NCBI GenBank assembly: GCA_021200955.1
Contig: JAJQFU010000001.1
Coordinates: forward strand, 1-51,413
DNA from: Clostridiales bacterium
GTDB lineage: Bacteria; Bacillota; Clostridia; Lachnospirales; CAG-274
Direction: 5' to 3'
Length of the DNA stretch: 51,413 nucleotides
Shown here: positions 12,705 to 32,584 of the stretch, piece after piece
How the letters are laid out: the number at the start of each line of letters is the position of its first letter
Position numbering within the stretch: the stretch's first letter is position 1
The notes under the pieces: generated by a model
Told to the model about the DNA's origin: nothing
The model's input: only the letters and a program-made list of their open reading frames with translations
Databases searched by the model: none
Position numbers and translations under genes: made by a program

Positions 12705-13535
12705 ATGTGCGGAAAGCTGTTTGTTTGCGGAACTCCGATCGGAAATCTTGAGGATATGACCCTAAGGTGCTTAAGGGTCTTAAAGGAATGCGACCTGATT
12801 GCCGCTGAGGACACCAGAAACACCCTGAAGCTTTTAAATTATTTTGAGATTAAAACCCCTATGACCTCTTATCACAAATTCAACGAGGAGGAAAAGGGGA
12901 AAAAGCTTGTTGAAAGAATTTTGAACGGCGACAACATTGCCCTTGTCAGCGATGCCGGAATGCCGGGAATTTCCGACCCGGGAGCAGTTGTCATAAATAT
13001 GTGCCGAAAAGCCGGGGTCGAGGTCTGTGTTGTTCCCGGACCTACGGCTGTAATTTCCGCCCTTGTGCTTTCCGGTATGGAGGGCAGAAGCTTCGCCTTT
13101 GAGGGCTTTCTTCCCGCAAATAAGCATATGAAAAAGGCGGTTTTGGAGCGTCTTAAAACGGAAAAGCGAACCACCGTTTTTTATGAAGCCCCTCACCACC
13201 TGAGAGAAACCCTTGCTGAAATCTATAAGACCTGCGGAGACAGAGAAGCGGCGGCAGTCCGCGAAATAACCAAAAAGCACGAGGAAACTCTGAGAATGGG
13301 GCTTAAGGAGCTTATTGACTATTTTGAAGAAAACGAACCCCGTGGGGAGTTCGTTCTCATTATAGGCGGTGCAAAGGAAGAAGAGGTTAAAACCGACCTT
13401 TCAGCCGCCGAAAGAGTGGCTCAGCTTATGAATGAAGGCATTGATAAAAAAGAAGCTATGAAAATCTGCGCTAAAGAAAGAGGAGTTTCAAAAAAGGTAA
13501 TTTATGCCGAATTGCTTAAGGACGATAGCCTTTAA
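12705..13535 (+). CDS. rsmI: 16S rRNA (cytidine-1402-2'-O)-methyltransferase
   Basis: Tetrapyrrole-methylase fold enzyme that 2'-O-methylates C1402 of 16S rRNA in the decoding centre. At 276 aa the length is normal. Conserved segments: LFVCGTPIGNLEDMTLR at the N-terminus, AAEDTRNTLKLL, ALVSDAGMPGISDPG (SAM loop), VPGPTAVISALVLSG, and EAPHHLRETLAEI. The C-terminus carries a helix-turn-helix-like tail (KKEAMKICAKERGVSKKVIY). It is last in the tmk operon and is followed by a terminator. Confidence 0.97.
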   Translation: MCGKLFVCGTPIGNLEDMTLRCLRVLKECDLIAAEDTRNTLKLLNYFEIKTPMTSYHKFNEEEKGKKLVERILNGDNIALVSDAGMPGISDPGAVVINMCRKAGVEVCVVPGPTAVISALVLSGMEGRSFAFEGFLPANKHMKKAVLERLKTEKRTTVFYEAPHHLRETLAEIYKTCGDREAAAVREITKKHEETLRMGLKELIDYFEENEPRGEFVLIIGGAKEEEVKTDLSAAERVAQLMNEGIDKKEAMKICAKERGVSKKVIYAELLKDDSL

Positions 13536-13564
13536 ACATCGTCGAATAAAAAAATTACAGCGAT

Positions 13565-13597
13565 TAACCGATACTGAATTGTGTCGGTTATTTTTTT
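13565..13597 (+). terminator. Terminator after rsmI
   Basis: TAACCGA pairs with TCGGTTA and is followed by seven T. Confidence 0.85.
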
Positions 13598-13631
13598 GTC
13601 TGAAATTAATTTTAGCGAAGGGGGAAAATAA

Positions 13632-14349
13632 ATGACTTACGGATATGCAAGGGTCAGCAGCAAAGACCAAAACGAGGACAGGCAGCTTATAGCCTTTGAA
13701 GAAAGCGGCTATAAATTTGACAGAATTTTTGTTGAGAAGCAAAGCGGCAAGGACTTTAACAGAGCCGAATACCGCAAAATGATTAAGGCTGTCAGAAAAG
13801 GTGACATCATTGTTGTAAAGAGTATTGACCGAAGGAATCGGAAAGATGTCCGAACGAGTACTGCGAATTTTTTCAAAGAAAAAAATCGTAGCAAGGCTCG
13901 GCTTTTCCCGAAGGGAAAAGTTCTGAAAGGGGAGAAATTACAATGAGATAATCGAGCAGTGGCGGAAGATAACAAAGGTTAAGAACGCCGATATAATCGT
14001 CCTTGATATGCCCATTTTAGACACCACAAAAAACAAGGATTTATTGGGAACACTTATAAGCGATTTAGTTTTACAGCTTCTATCTTATGTAGCTGAAAAC
14101 GAAAGGGTGAACATAAAACAGCGTCAAACCGAGGGCATAGCCGCCGCCAAAGCCAAAGGGGTCAAATTCGGCAGAAAGCCAATTTATGACTATCGAGACT
14201 ACATAGAAATTTATGACAAATTCAGACGTCAGGAATTAACCCAAAAACAGGCTATGGAGATTATAGGCTGCTGCAAAACCACATATTATCGTATTATGAA
14301 AGATATAAGAGCCGCAAAAAAGCTTGAAGAAGCCCAATATGAAATTTGA
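13632..14349 (+). pseudogene. Serine recombinase (resolvase/invertase family), interrupted by a hairpin repeat
   Basis: The first fragment (13632-13832, 67 codons) has the serine recombinase N-terminus, TYGYARVSSKDQNEDRQ, with the catalytic Ser at 9 or 10 and conserved Arg residues, ending at SIDR. The family continues with LGRNY; instead a foreign segment of about 95 bp follows. The second fragment resumes at 13930 in another frame as GRNYNEIIEQW. It runs to 14349 through the long E-helix region and ends in a helix-turn-helix (LTQKQAMEIIGCCKTTYYR). Joined, the gene would encode about 207 aa, the normal size for small resolvases and invertases. The insert adds a frameshift and stops, separating catalytic and DNA-binding parts, so the product is very probably inactive. 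It ends 23 bp before an inverted repeat that it may once have recombined. Confidence 0.85.
13833..13929 (-). repeat. Three-hairpin repeat inserted in the recombinase gene (copy A)
   Basis: The segment is bounded by the interrupted recombinase codons. Read on the minus strand it aligns along its length with 32470-32556: both begin CAGAACTTTT, continue xCCxxCGGxAAAAGCCG, share TTTCTTTGAAAAA in the centre, and end TCTTTC-x-G-x-TTCC. Three stems are visible on the plus strand: TCGGA/TCCGA near 13838-13853, a long A/T-rich stem with arms either side of TTTTTTCAAAGAAAAAA, and a perfect CTTTTCCC/GGGAAAAG hairpin at 13902-13920. It contains no gene. I infer a small non-autonomous mobile repeat; no clear target-site duplication is visible. 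Confidence 0.7.
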
Positions 14350-14372
14350 TTATTGGTAATAATAACTAAAAA

Positions 14373-14392
14373 TTCCTATTAAAGTATACTTT
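14373..14392 (+). repeat. Left inverted repeat of an invertible segment
   Basis: TTCCTATTAAAGTATACTTT matches the reverse complement of 14500-14519 at 19 of 20 positions. Its 3' twelve bases are the perfect palindrome AAAGTATACTTT, as expected for a site bound by a recombinase dimer. Confidence 0.85.
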
Positions 14393-14428
14393 GGTAATCA
14401 TAGCAACATTAAACAACTTTACGCATTT

Positions 14429-14458
14429 ATTATACATTATTTATTGTTCAAAAGTCAA
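14429..14458 (-). promoter_or_regulatory. Consensus-like promoter inside the invertible segment, pointing left (OFF orientation)
   Basis: On the minus strand TTGACT (14453-14458), an 18-bp spacer and TATAAT (14429-14434). As drawn it fires toward the recombinase pseudogene (antisense to its 3' end) and away from the secreted-protein gene at 14575. Inversion of 14373-14519 would place the -35 near 14434-14439 and the -10 near 14458-14463 on the plus strand, aimed at that gene. On the plus strand as it stands I see only weak matches (TTGTTT, 19-bp spacer, TATACT within the right repeat). Confidence 0.7.
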
Positions 14459-14499
14459 CATAAAAATCAAAAAGTTTTTTGTTTAAATTATAGTACGCA

Positions 14500-14519
14500 A
14501 AAGTATACTTTAGTAGGAA
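14500..14519 (-). repeat. Right inverted repeat of an invertible segment
   Basis: AAAGTATACTTTAGTAGGAA, the inverted partner of 14373-14392 with one mismatch. The two repeats enclose 107 bp of very A/T-rich DNA holding a promoter and no gene. The start codon of the downstream gene lies 56 bp beyond this repeat. Confidence 0.85.
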
Positions 14520-14574
14520 ATCTGTTGATTTTATTACGGCAGCATAAGAATATTTAATTTAGGGAGGAAATACA

Positions 14575-15327
14575 GTGAAAAAATTATTACTTATTCTTGC
14601 AGCTATAACTGCAGCGGTTTCTTTTACGGTTAGTCCATATGCCAATGAAGGATATACCGAGGTTACTCTTGTTATCGACGGTCAAGAAGTTGAATCCGAT
14701 CAGCCGGCGGTTATTGTAGACGGCAGAACTATGGTCCCCGTCAGAGTTATTGCCGATGCTTTAGGTATATGGATTGACTATATTGAAAATACTAAAACTG
14801 TTCTTTTTGAAAAGAACAACACGGACATAATGCTTACAATAGGCAACAATTTTGCGGTTGTTGATGATGAAGAGGTAGAAATCGATTCTCCTGCTGTTAT
14901 TATTAACGGCAGAACTATGGTTCCTGTCAGATTTATTTCGGAAATTTTCTCCGCAGAGGTTGGTTGGAATGCCGACACAAAAACCGTTACAATTACAAAT
15001 ATTGCTGTTGAAGCAGAGCCGGATGACTCTGATGAACCTTTGTATGTTGATTCTGAATTATATTATGTAGCAGGAAGAAAAAGAAGTGAATCCTCTTCTG
15101 ACAGTGAACATATGATTTTTGCAGATGGTGTGTTTGTCTATGAAGAATATTCCCATATAGACGGAAAAGGCAGCTATGGAATATACCCCGGAGATACGGA
15201 ACCGGCAGCTGAAATTCTTGAACGCTCTCCTTATTATGGTATGACTATGGAAGAGATTATAGCTTCTCTTGAAGCGGACGGTTATGAGGTTGTAAGCGGA
15301 ACTGACAGCAGTTTGCTGTATTATTAA
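14575..15327 (+). CDS. Secreted protein with two copper-amine-oxidase-N-like domains
   Basis: The GTG at 14575 follows GGGAGGAAATACA. The 250-aa product begins with a signal peptide (KKLLLILAAITAAVSF) and contains two tandem stalk-type repeats recognised by V-I-x-GRTMVPVR: VDGRTMVPVRVIADALG (about residues 49-65) and INGRTMVPVRFISEIF (about 106-121). These are Cu_amine_oxidN1 domains, common in surface proteins of Clostridia and thought to act in binding or structure rather than catalysis. The C-terminal 100 residues are acidic, Tyr-rich and unrecognised. No membrane anchor or SLH domain is visible. It lies directly downstream of the putative invertible promoter, so its expression is probably phase-variable and currently off. 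Confidence 0.85.
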   Translation: MKKLLLILAAITAAVSFTVSPYANEGYTEVTLVIDGQEVESDQPAVIVDGRTMVPVRVIADALGIWIDYIENTKTVLFEKNNTDIMLTIGNNFAVVDDEEVEIDSPAVIINGRTMVPVRFISEIFSAEVGWNADTKTVTITNIAVEAEPDDSDEPLYVDSELYYVAGRKRSESSSDSEHMIFADGVFVYEEYSHIDGKGSYGIYPGDTEPAAEILERSPYYGMTMEEIIASLEADGYEVVSGTDSSLLYY

Positions 15328-15390
15328 TTTTGACATCATAAATATTTTCAGTTTTAACTATATCTAAGAACTTCTGAAATAAAACCATAA

Positions 15391-15433
15391 AAAGGATAGA
15401 AATCAAGGTCAATTCCCTGTTTTTCTATCCTTT
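15391..15433 (+). terminator. Hairpin after the secreted-protein gene
   Basis: AAAGGATAGAAA pairs perfectly with TTTCTATCCTTT (12 bp). The following run is CATTTTA, so termination on the plus strand is likely but not textbook. Confidence 0.6.
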
Positions 15434-15442
15434 CATTTTAGC

Positions 15443-15471
15443 TTGTGTGTTTTTACAATATATGCTATAAT
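15443..15471 (+). promoter_or_regulatory. Promoter of the candidate small RNA
   Basis: TTGTGT (15443-15448), a 17-bp spacer and TATAAT (15466-15471) with an extended -10 TG at 15463-15464. Confidence 0.6.
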
Positions 15472-15477
15472 ATTCTT

Positions 15478-15733
15478 GTTACCGCCCCTATACCGGTACG
15501 GAGGGGTTTTAACAGTGGTTGTATTTGTAACTATAAAAGTCTGCTACACGCTGAACCTCGGTTCTCGCTGAAAACCTTAGTTTTCAGCGATTAAGGAACA
15601 CTTCCGCAGTGTATCTTTTTTCTGTGCTTGCACAGAAATGAATGCACGTAGGCAAGTGTGACGCAGTGCGGTCTAAGCCTCCGCAAAAAAGGCTAGAAAA
15701 GCCCGGAGAACGGAACTCTCCGGGCTTTTTGTG
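15478..15733 (+). ncRNA. Candidate structured small RNA of about 255 nt
   Basis: This region has no credible gene but lies between a good promoter and a strong intrinsic terminator (AAAGCCCGGAGA/TCTCCGGGCTTT, 15698-15728, then more T). Predicted pairings by eye: long-range ACCGC (15481-15485) with GCGGT (15668-15672), and CTGCtACAC (15541-15549) with GTGTgacGCAG (15656-15666). These enclose GAAC/GTTC (15553-15564), a perfect 10-bp CGCTGAAAAC/GTTTTCAGCG (15566-15589) and a 9-bp TTTCTGTGC/GCACAGAAA (15619-15638). It does not show motifs I know for RNase P, SRP RNA, tmRNA or 6S RNA. The terminator also reads well in reverse and probably serves luxS, which converges from the right. Transcription and structure are inferred. 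Confidence 0.5.
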
Positions 15734-32451: not shown

Positions 32452-32584
32452 CCTCCCCTTGAGGGCGTTCAGAACTTTTGCCTGCGGCAAAAGCCGTACA
32501 CCTTGAAATTTTCTTTGAAAAAAACAAGGTGTACGTCCCGAACTCTTTCGGGTTCCGGCTGGCACACGTAGTGTGACGGAGAGG
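32452..32584. repeat. Fold-back intergenic repeat containing copy B of the three-hairpin element
   Basis: Outer arms CCTCCCC (32452-32458) and GGAGAGG (32578-32584) can pair. Inside, 32470-32556 is homologous to the insert in the recombinase gene. It has hairpin 1 CTTTTGCC/GGCAAAAG (32475-32493), hairpin 2 GTACACCTTG/CAAGGTGTAC with TTTTC/GAAAA nested inside, and hairpin 3 CCCGAA/TTCGGG. A further CACAC/GTGTG-type stem lies near 32562-32575. It sits between the thrE promoter and start codon, so it is transcribed as their 5' leader. The outer arms resemble a CACCTCTCC...GGGGAGGC intergenic repeat I recall from gut Firmicutes; I could not search for it. Confidence 0.75.

Follow-up and report, generated by a model that had tools for sequence, protein, structure and literature searches.

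How can a gene be expressed when the best promoter in its neighborhood points the other way? In the window, i.e., the whole 51,413-base stretch of clostridial DNA analyzed here, this question is raised by a short segment, 14373-14519, which separates the remains of a serine recombinase gene from the gene for a secreted protein and carries a promoter between inverted repeats. Judging from sequence, the segment is with good probability an invertible promoter, i.e., a phase-variation switch, now in the OFF state, whose ~203-aa serine recombinase would be supplied in trans. From left to right, the locus comprises:

13632-13847, plus strand: N-terminal portion, with the catalytic serine region, of a broken serine recombinase of the Sin/resolvase type
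13834-13927, plus strand: 94-bp dispersed repeat inside the recombinase gene, which shifts the frame
13927-14349, plus strand: C-terminal portion of this recombinase with its DNA-binding end, ~90% identical to an intact copy on contig C149 of the same genome (G000)
14373-14392, plus strand: left inverted repeat TTCCTATTAAAGTATACTTT, the putative recombinase-side recombination site, with core AAAGTATACTTT at 14381-14392
14393-14499, no strand: 107-bp interior, putatively invertible, with homology to the interiors of the other four copies in this genome
14429-14458, minus strand: predicted sigma-70-type promoter TTGACT-18-TATAAT, now toward the recombinase (OFF)
14500-14519, plus strand: right inverted repeat AAAGTATACTTTAGTAGGAA, the putative cargo-side recombination site, with core at 14500-14511
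14575-15327, plus strand: cargo gene for a 250-aa secreted protein with a copper amine oxidase N-terminal domain (PF07833, Cu_amine_oxidN1), with a GTG start and the ribosome-binding site AGGGAGG

A Promoter Between Inverted Repeats

The two arms, 14373-14392 and 14500-14519, are 20 nt long, 95% complementary (one mismatch) and 107 nt apart, and each contains a perfect 12-bp palindrome, AAAGTATACTTT, at 14381-14392 and 14500-14511. The pair stands out beyond chance: the 51,413-base window holds no second 20-nt inverted pair with at most one mismatch and a gap of 20-300, and 20 first-order Markov replicas of the window hold none at all. An earlier note on this DNA had described two 20-bp repeats, identical at 19 of 20 positions, each with a 12-bp palindrome and with 107 bp between them; the description is accurate, and this is the sole such pair in the window. 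In the 2.5-Mb genome the perfect core occurs exactly four times, each time within a copy of this element.

The promoter inside the segment has its -35 hexamer TTGACT at 14458-14453 and, 18 bp away, its -10 hexamer TATAAT at 14434-14429; it matches 11 of 12 consensus positions, lies on the minus strand pointing left, and is the best-scoring promoter-like site of 13500-15500. When the interior was shuffled by mononucleotide 2000 times, an equal or better score on either strand arose in 27 cases, so the promoter by itself is moderate evidence. Its direction, away from the signal-peptide gene at 14575, bears out the OFF state assigned to it by the earlier note, and so does simple arithmetic for the companion claim that a flip would aim it at that gene: inversion is predicted to place the -35 element at 14434-14439, the -10 element at 14458-14463 and the transcription start near 14470, ~105 nt ahead of the cargo start codon. 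The cargo gene (14575-15327) has a good Shine-Dalgarno sequence, and a promoter scan between 14520 and 14575 found no promoter of its own. An outward promoter that would face the cargo gene once inverted is thus present inside the segment.

Two other uses of the region were considered and dropped. For a riboswitch or leader RNA, Rfam gave no match in 14373-14575 even at E ≤ 1. A leader ORF (ATGATTACTAAAGTATAC across the site), which inversion would fuse to the cargo, was abandoned because its frame is not preserved between L029 and L030, two of the related loci.

Related Copies in the Genome and Genus

A genome-wide census by pattern and homology searches places the segment in a family. A search with the 241-bp region recovers five homologous copies in this genome, on contigs C133 (the window), C88, C53, C149 and C8, and homologous copies in seven of the eight other genomes of the genus. 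Across ten aligned copies the sites are conserved, as is the promoter region in all ten, in one common orientation. Most copies sit between a cargo gene and, on its upstream side, the 3′ end of a gene for a recombinase or else for CotJC or glutamate dehydrogenase (the latter two read from sequence). For the remaining four copies of this genome, the cargo is in each case a secreted BspA-type LRR_5 protein, which carries a dockerin domain at one locus and a cohesin domain at another.

Dispersal in multiple copies, with homology of ~190 bp that includes both arms, would also suit a MITE-like mobile element whose arms are terminal repeats, which carries an outward promoter and is moved by a serine recombinase. 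This origin is scarcely credible: the copies are fixed between the end of an upstream gene and the start of a secreted-protein gene, often with flanks in common with a relative, what is seen among them is inverted alleles (see below), and to our knowledge serine resolvases of this type do not mobilize such repeats.

A more divergent switch-like element with sites AACGTATACTTT / AAAGTATACCTT (L040:2435-2586, on G000:C107) lies between an intact recombinase, 62% identical, and a WYL-like regulator gene, with its promoter again toward the recombinase. In a sister species, L038:1890-4400 (G001:C122) repeats the order of window 12705-15327, an RsmI-like methylase, a broken recombinase and the switch, followed by other cargo; the comparison reads as cargo replacement next to a conserved switch.

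The Recombinase

The enzyme that would act on these sites is a serine recombinase by family. The associated gene product is a PF00239 resolvase in Pfam, and its closest PDB chain is Sin, 2r0q (phmmer E 4.4e-31); a tyrosine recombinase of the kind that operates the Clostridioides difficile RecV-type switch is not what is found here. In the window this gene is a pseudogene, its frame split into 13632-13847 and 13927-14349 by the 94-bp insert, so that no intact recombinase adjoins the window element. The earlier note, which placed a serine recombinase gene 23 bp before the left repeat, had the position of the 3′ end right and missed that the repeat splits the frame.

The 94-bp repeat is rich in palindromes (GGAATCGGAAAGATGTCCGAACGAG...) and has ~20 further matches in the genome, one of them at 32468-32523, and is also matched in two sister species. 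It occupies the same position in the recombinase paralogues of G000:C88 and G001:C122; the C88 gene is broken at the same point as the window copy and then again further along, where a second repeat (GGAACCCGAAAGAAATCGGGGCGTGCG...) interrupts both the C88 and the G001:C122 recombinases. An intact 203-aa paralogue, ~90% identical to the window recombinase, is encoded on C149 (G000:C149:1511-2119).

Within the family, the site is linked to its cognate serine recombinase. Among 30 recombinases collected by protein homology alone, without regard to the site, 16 have a site with at most one mismatch within 420 bp downstream and one has it upstream, against the ~0.5% expected from 28 sites across the 2.5-Mb genome. 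Inverted repeats of at least 10 nt lie downstream of 31 recombinases in a larger set of 56, compared with 6 upstream and 3 in shuffles; this set was partly chosen by site, which leaves the count of 30 genes as the fair comparison.

Adjacency is not universal: the elements on C53 and C8 have no recombinase alongside. With two of five elements thus without an adjacent enzyme gene and the window gene broken, switching would have to act in trans, and the enzyme for the window copy would come from elsewhere in the genome, most likely from C149. In the proposed mechanism, a Sin/Tn3-resolvase-type serine recombinase of ~203 aa would bind the two near-identical AAAGTATACTTT sites and exchange strands within them, flipping the 107-bp interior together with its outward promoter. 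Transcription would then run toward the recombinase in the OFF state and into the Cu_amine_oxidN1 gene at 14575 in the ON state. Because the local gene is broken, an intact paralogue would provide the enzyme in trans, the best candidate being G000:C149:1511-2119, which may also serve the sister switches ahead of BspA-type LRR genes on C149, C88, C53 and C8.

Inverted Alleles Among Relatives

Every pair of elements whose interiors are alike was checked, in both senses, for homologous flanks, and both orientations were found among family members, with no flipped allele seen for the window locus itself. Loci L078 and L097 belong to a single MAG and are bordered on either side by homologous sequence; the two segments match at 72 of 137 positions as they stand and at 117 of 117 after one is inverted; for the flagellin loci L066 and L072 the corresponding values are 74/144 and 116/126. 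These pairs are paralogous or separate loci, not two states of one locus.

A second kind of evidence comes from contig ends. In G018, contigs C167 and C12 start with exactly 55 identical bases (the end of the interior plus the site), beyond which C167 continues into a recombinase and C12 into a TIR gene; in G037:C330 the same recombinase and TIR flanks surround one segment. Similarly, L090 and L108 (1-280 each), two contigs of another MAG, have exactly 77 bases in common, after which the segment follows in opposite senses. The usual assembler k-mer sizes include 55 and 77, so the shared ends in both cases look like assembly graph forks from mixed orientations. The far flanks of L090 and L108 are not the same, so a simple inversion is not enough to account for these two contigs, which may reflect a duplication or a site-specific exchange between two loci. 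MAG assemblies could in principle contain duplicated rather than flipped loci.

A switch precedes a CAP12/Pycsar-type TIR effector gene at L007:29-1267, L011 and L025, with both junctions present in G018, and may constitute phase-variable anti-phage defense.

The comparison with relatives urged by the earlier note has turned up inverted alleles (L078/L097, L066/L072 and the G018 forks), and the layout of a phase-variation switch is backed by a repeated family whose members occur in both orientations relative to homologous flanks. The same data bear on the proposal that a transcription factor binds the AAAGTATACTTT palindromes as a paired operator and represses or loops the promoter with no inversion. 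Perfect palindromes in a promoter region do resemble operators, a viral contig has an array of the same palindrome close to a gene for a ParA-like protein, and most copies share one orientation; against this stand the alleles in inverted orientation, the assembly forks that fall at the sites, the position of sites directly downstream of serine recombinase genes, and a main promoter that is not aimed at the cargo. For the family, repression or looping from a paired operator is rejected because inverted alleles exist, which an operator does not predict; for the window copy, it is very unlikely. The earlier note had named a conserved operator in genomes lacking the recombinase as grounds for giving up the switch: an adjacent recombinase is indeed absent at some loci, while the checked genomes of the genus carry one elsewhere.

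Orientation Bias and Possibly Locked Copies

The five copies of this genome are all OFF, like nearly every two-site copy in the genus; the switching rate may therefore be low, or the copy locked. In 28 recombinase-adjacent elements, the better promoter points toward the recombinase in 23 and toward the cargo in 4, with 1 tie; where the promoter margin is clear, the ratio is 17 OFF to 1 ON, among copies that are related and not independent. ON is therefore rare rather than one of two equally frequent states and is clearly the rarer state in assemblies. In the window's genus, L033, with both sites decayed, and L024, with the left site lost and one remaining, carry the same promoter toward the downstream gene, as expected of switches that became locked ON.

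The window copy may likewise have been locked OFF recently: a once-invertible promoter frozen by the death of its recombinase in cis, with sites that are relics and a cargo gene that is silent or read through from upstream. The disrupted recombinase, the OFF state of every copy in the genome, and the evidence from L033 and L024 that site decay can lock copies (both of them ON) speak for such a fate. It is nevertheless unlikely, given that the window sites, with perfect 12-bp palindromes and arms matching at 19 of 20 positions, are better kept than those of C8 or C53, and that the intact, ~90% identical C149 recombinase lies next to an element with perfect 21-bp arms. A segment that can still invert, with the enzyme provided in trans, is the preferred reading.

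Wider Distribution and Cargo

When GTDB genomes were scanned for pairs of perfect cores at a distance of 92-120 bp, 87 stretches emerged, mainly in MAGs of gut Clostridia and otherwise in a few cultured strains; Dielma fastidiosa and Lachnospiraceae bacterium 10-1 are cultured carriers of the paired sites. The genes that follow encode LRR proteins, flagellins, lipoproteins, a TIR effector and others. For 41 likely cargo proteins, Pfam assigns LRR_5 (9), flagellin (7), Cu_amine_oxidN1 (3) and NPCBM (2), with single cases of SLH, MCP, glycosyltransferase 11, WYL and CAP12/Pycsar TIR; the proteins were picked by an adjoining recombinase, a hydrophobic N-terminus or flagellin motifs, so these counts do not describe a random sample. 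Such cargo is typical phase-variable surface material. At L104:5497-5762, two switch segments stand in tandem ahead of the same cargo, with the middle site in common.

A phage origin of the core was also considered and set aside: a viral scan gave three contigs, and the one inspected (L163:1725-2100, an IMG/VR viral contig) has AAAAGTATACTTTT palindromes arrayed ahead of a ParA-like gene, an arrangement that looks like a partition site, a use unrelated to inversion.

The result is a predicted multi-locus phase-variation system for gut Clostridia, mostly uncultured, that can be recognized by a 12-bp motif, so that assemblies can directly supply calls of phase variation for surface proteins, for flagellins and even for a TIR defense effector. 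A bolder idea, tentative and rather doubtful at present, is that AAAGTATACTTT represents a Clostridia-wide “flip code” in which one Sin-like recombinase lineage sets up promoter-switch regulons, often in trans, with cargo exchanged between loci; if true, the code would extend to LRR proteins of the surface, to flagellins and in occasional cases to TIR effectors against phage. Promoters and cargo may also be reshuffled by recombination that joins sites of separate loci; L090/L108 (same flank, inverted segment, different far flank) and the G001 methylase-recombinase-switch locus with its different cargo hint at this.

Comparison With Known Systems

A literature search with the core sequence returned a Plasmodium microsatellite paper alone, and no paper came up for invertible promoters in combination with serine recombinase, Clostridia and leucine-rich repeat. 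A comparable description is that of the Firmicutes_A inverton groups in the hCom2 survey of gut invertons, likewise defined by inverted repeats in Clostridia with recombinases nearby; that survey reports new Firmicutes_A motifs, names two groups, 139 and 125, and links 139 to tyrosine recombinases (PMC11892184). The present family is possibly identical to one of these groups and hence already described. As far as searched, this is a previously undescribed, widespread family of invertible promoters.

Within Clostridia, the RecV switches of C. difficile, the flagellar switch and cwpV, are similar in that an invertible segment precedes surface or flagellar genes and one enzyme serves several loci. 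The C. difficile switch has 154 bp between 21-bp repeats, and RecV is a tyrosine recombinase whose switches have no recognizable common core (PMC5386303). By contrast, the family described here has a nearly invariant core and a serine recombinase. It shares its enzyme family (PF00239) with the Sin/Tn552 and γδ resolvases. These enzymes resolve directly repeated res sites by deletion, whereas the promoter here lies between two single sites in inverted orientation at a distance of ~100-130 bp.

In overall design, the family resembles the switches governed by Mpi, a serine recombinase, in Bacteroides fragilis: a single recombinase serves, in trans, many short promoter segments that have a common core, and surface structures are switched. 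At least 13 Mpi switches with a 10-bp core are cited in PMC5386303. The clostridial family differs in phylum, in its core AAAGTATACTTT, in its Sin/Tn3-resolvase-like enzyme, in its sigma-70-type promoter, and in its LRR, CuAO-N and flagellin cargo.
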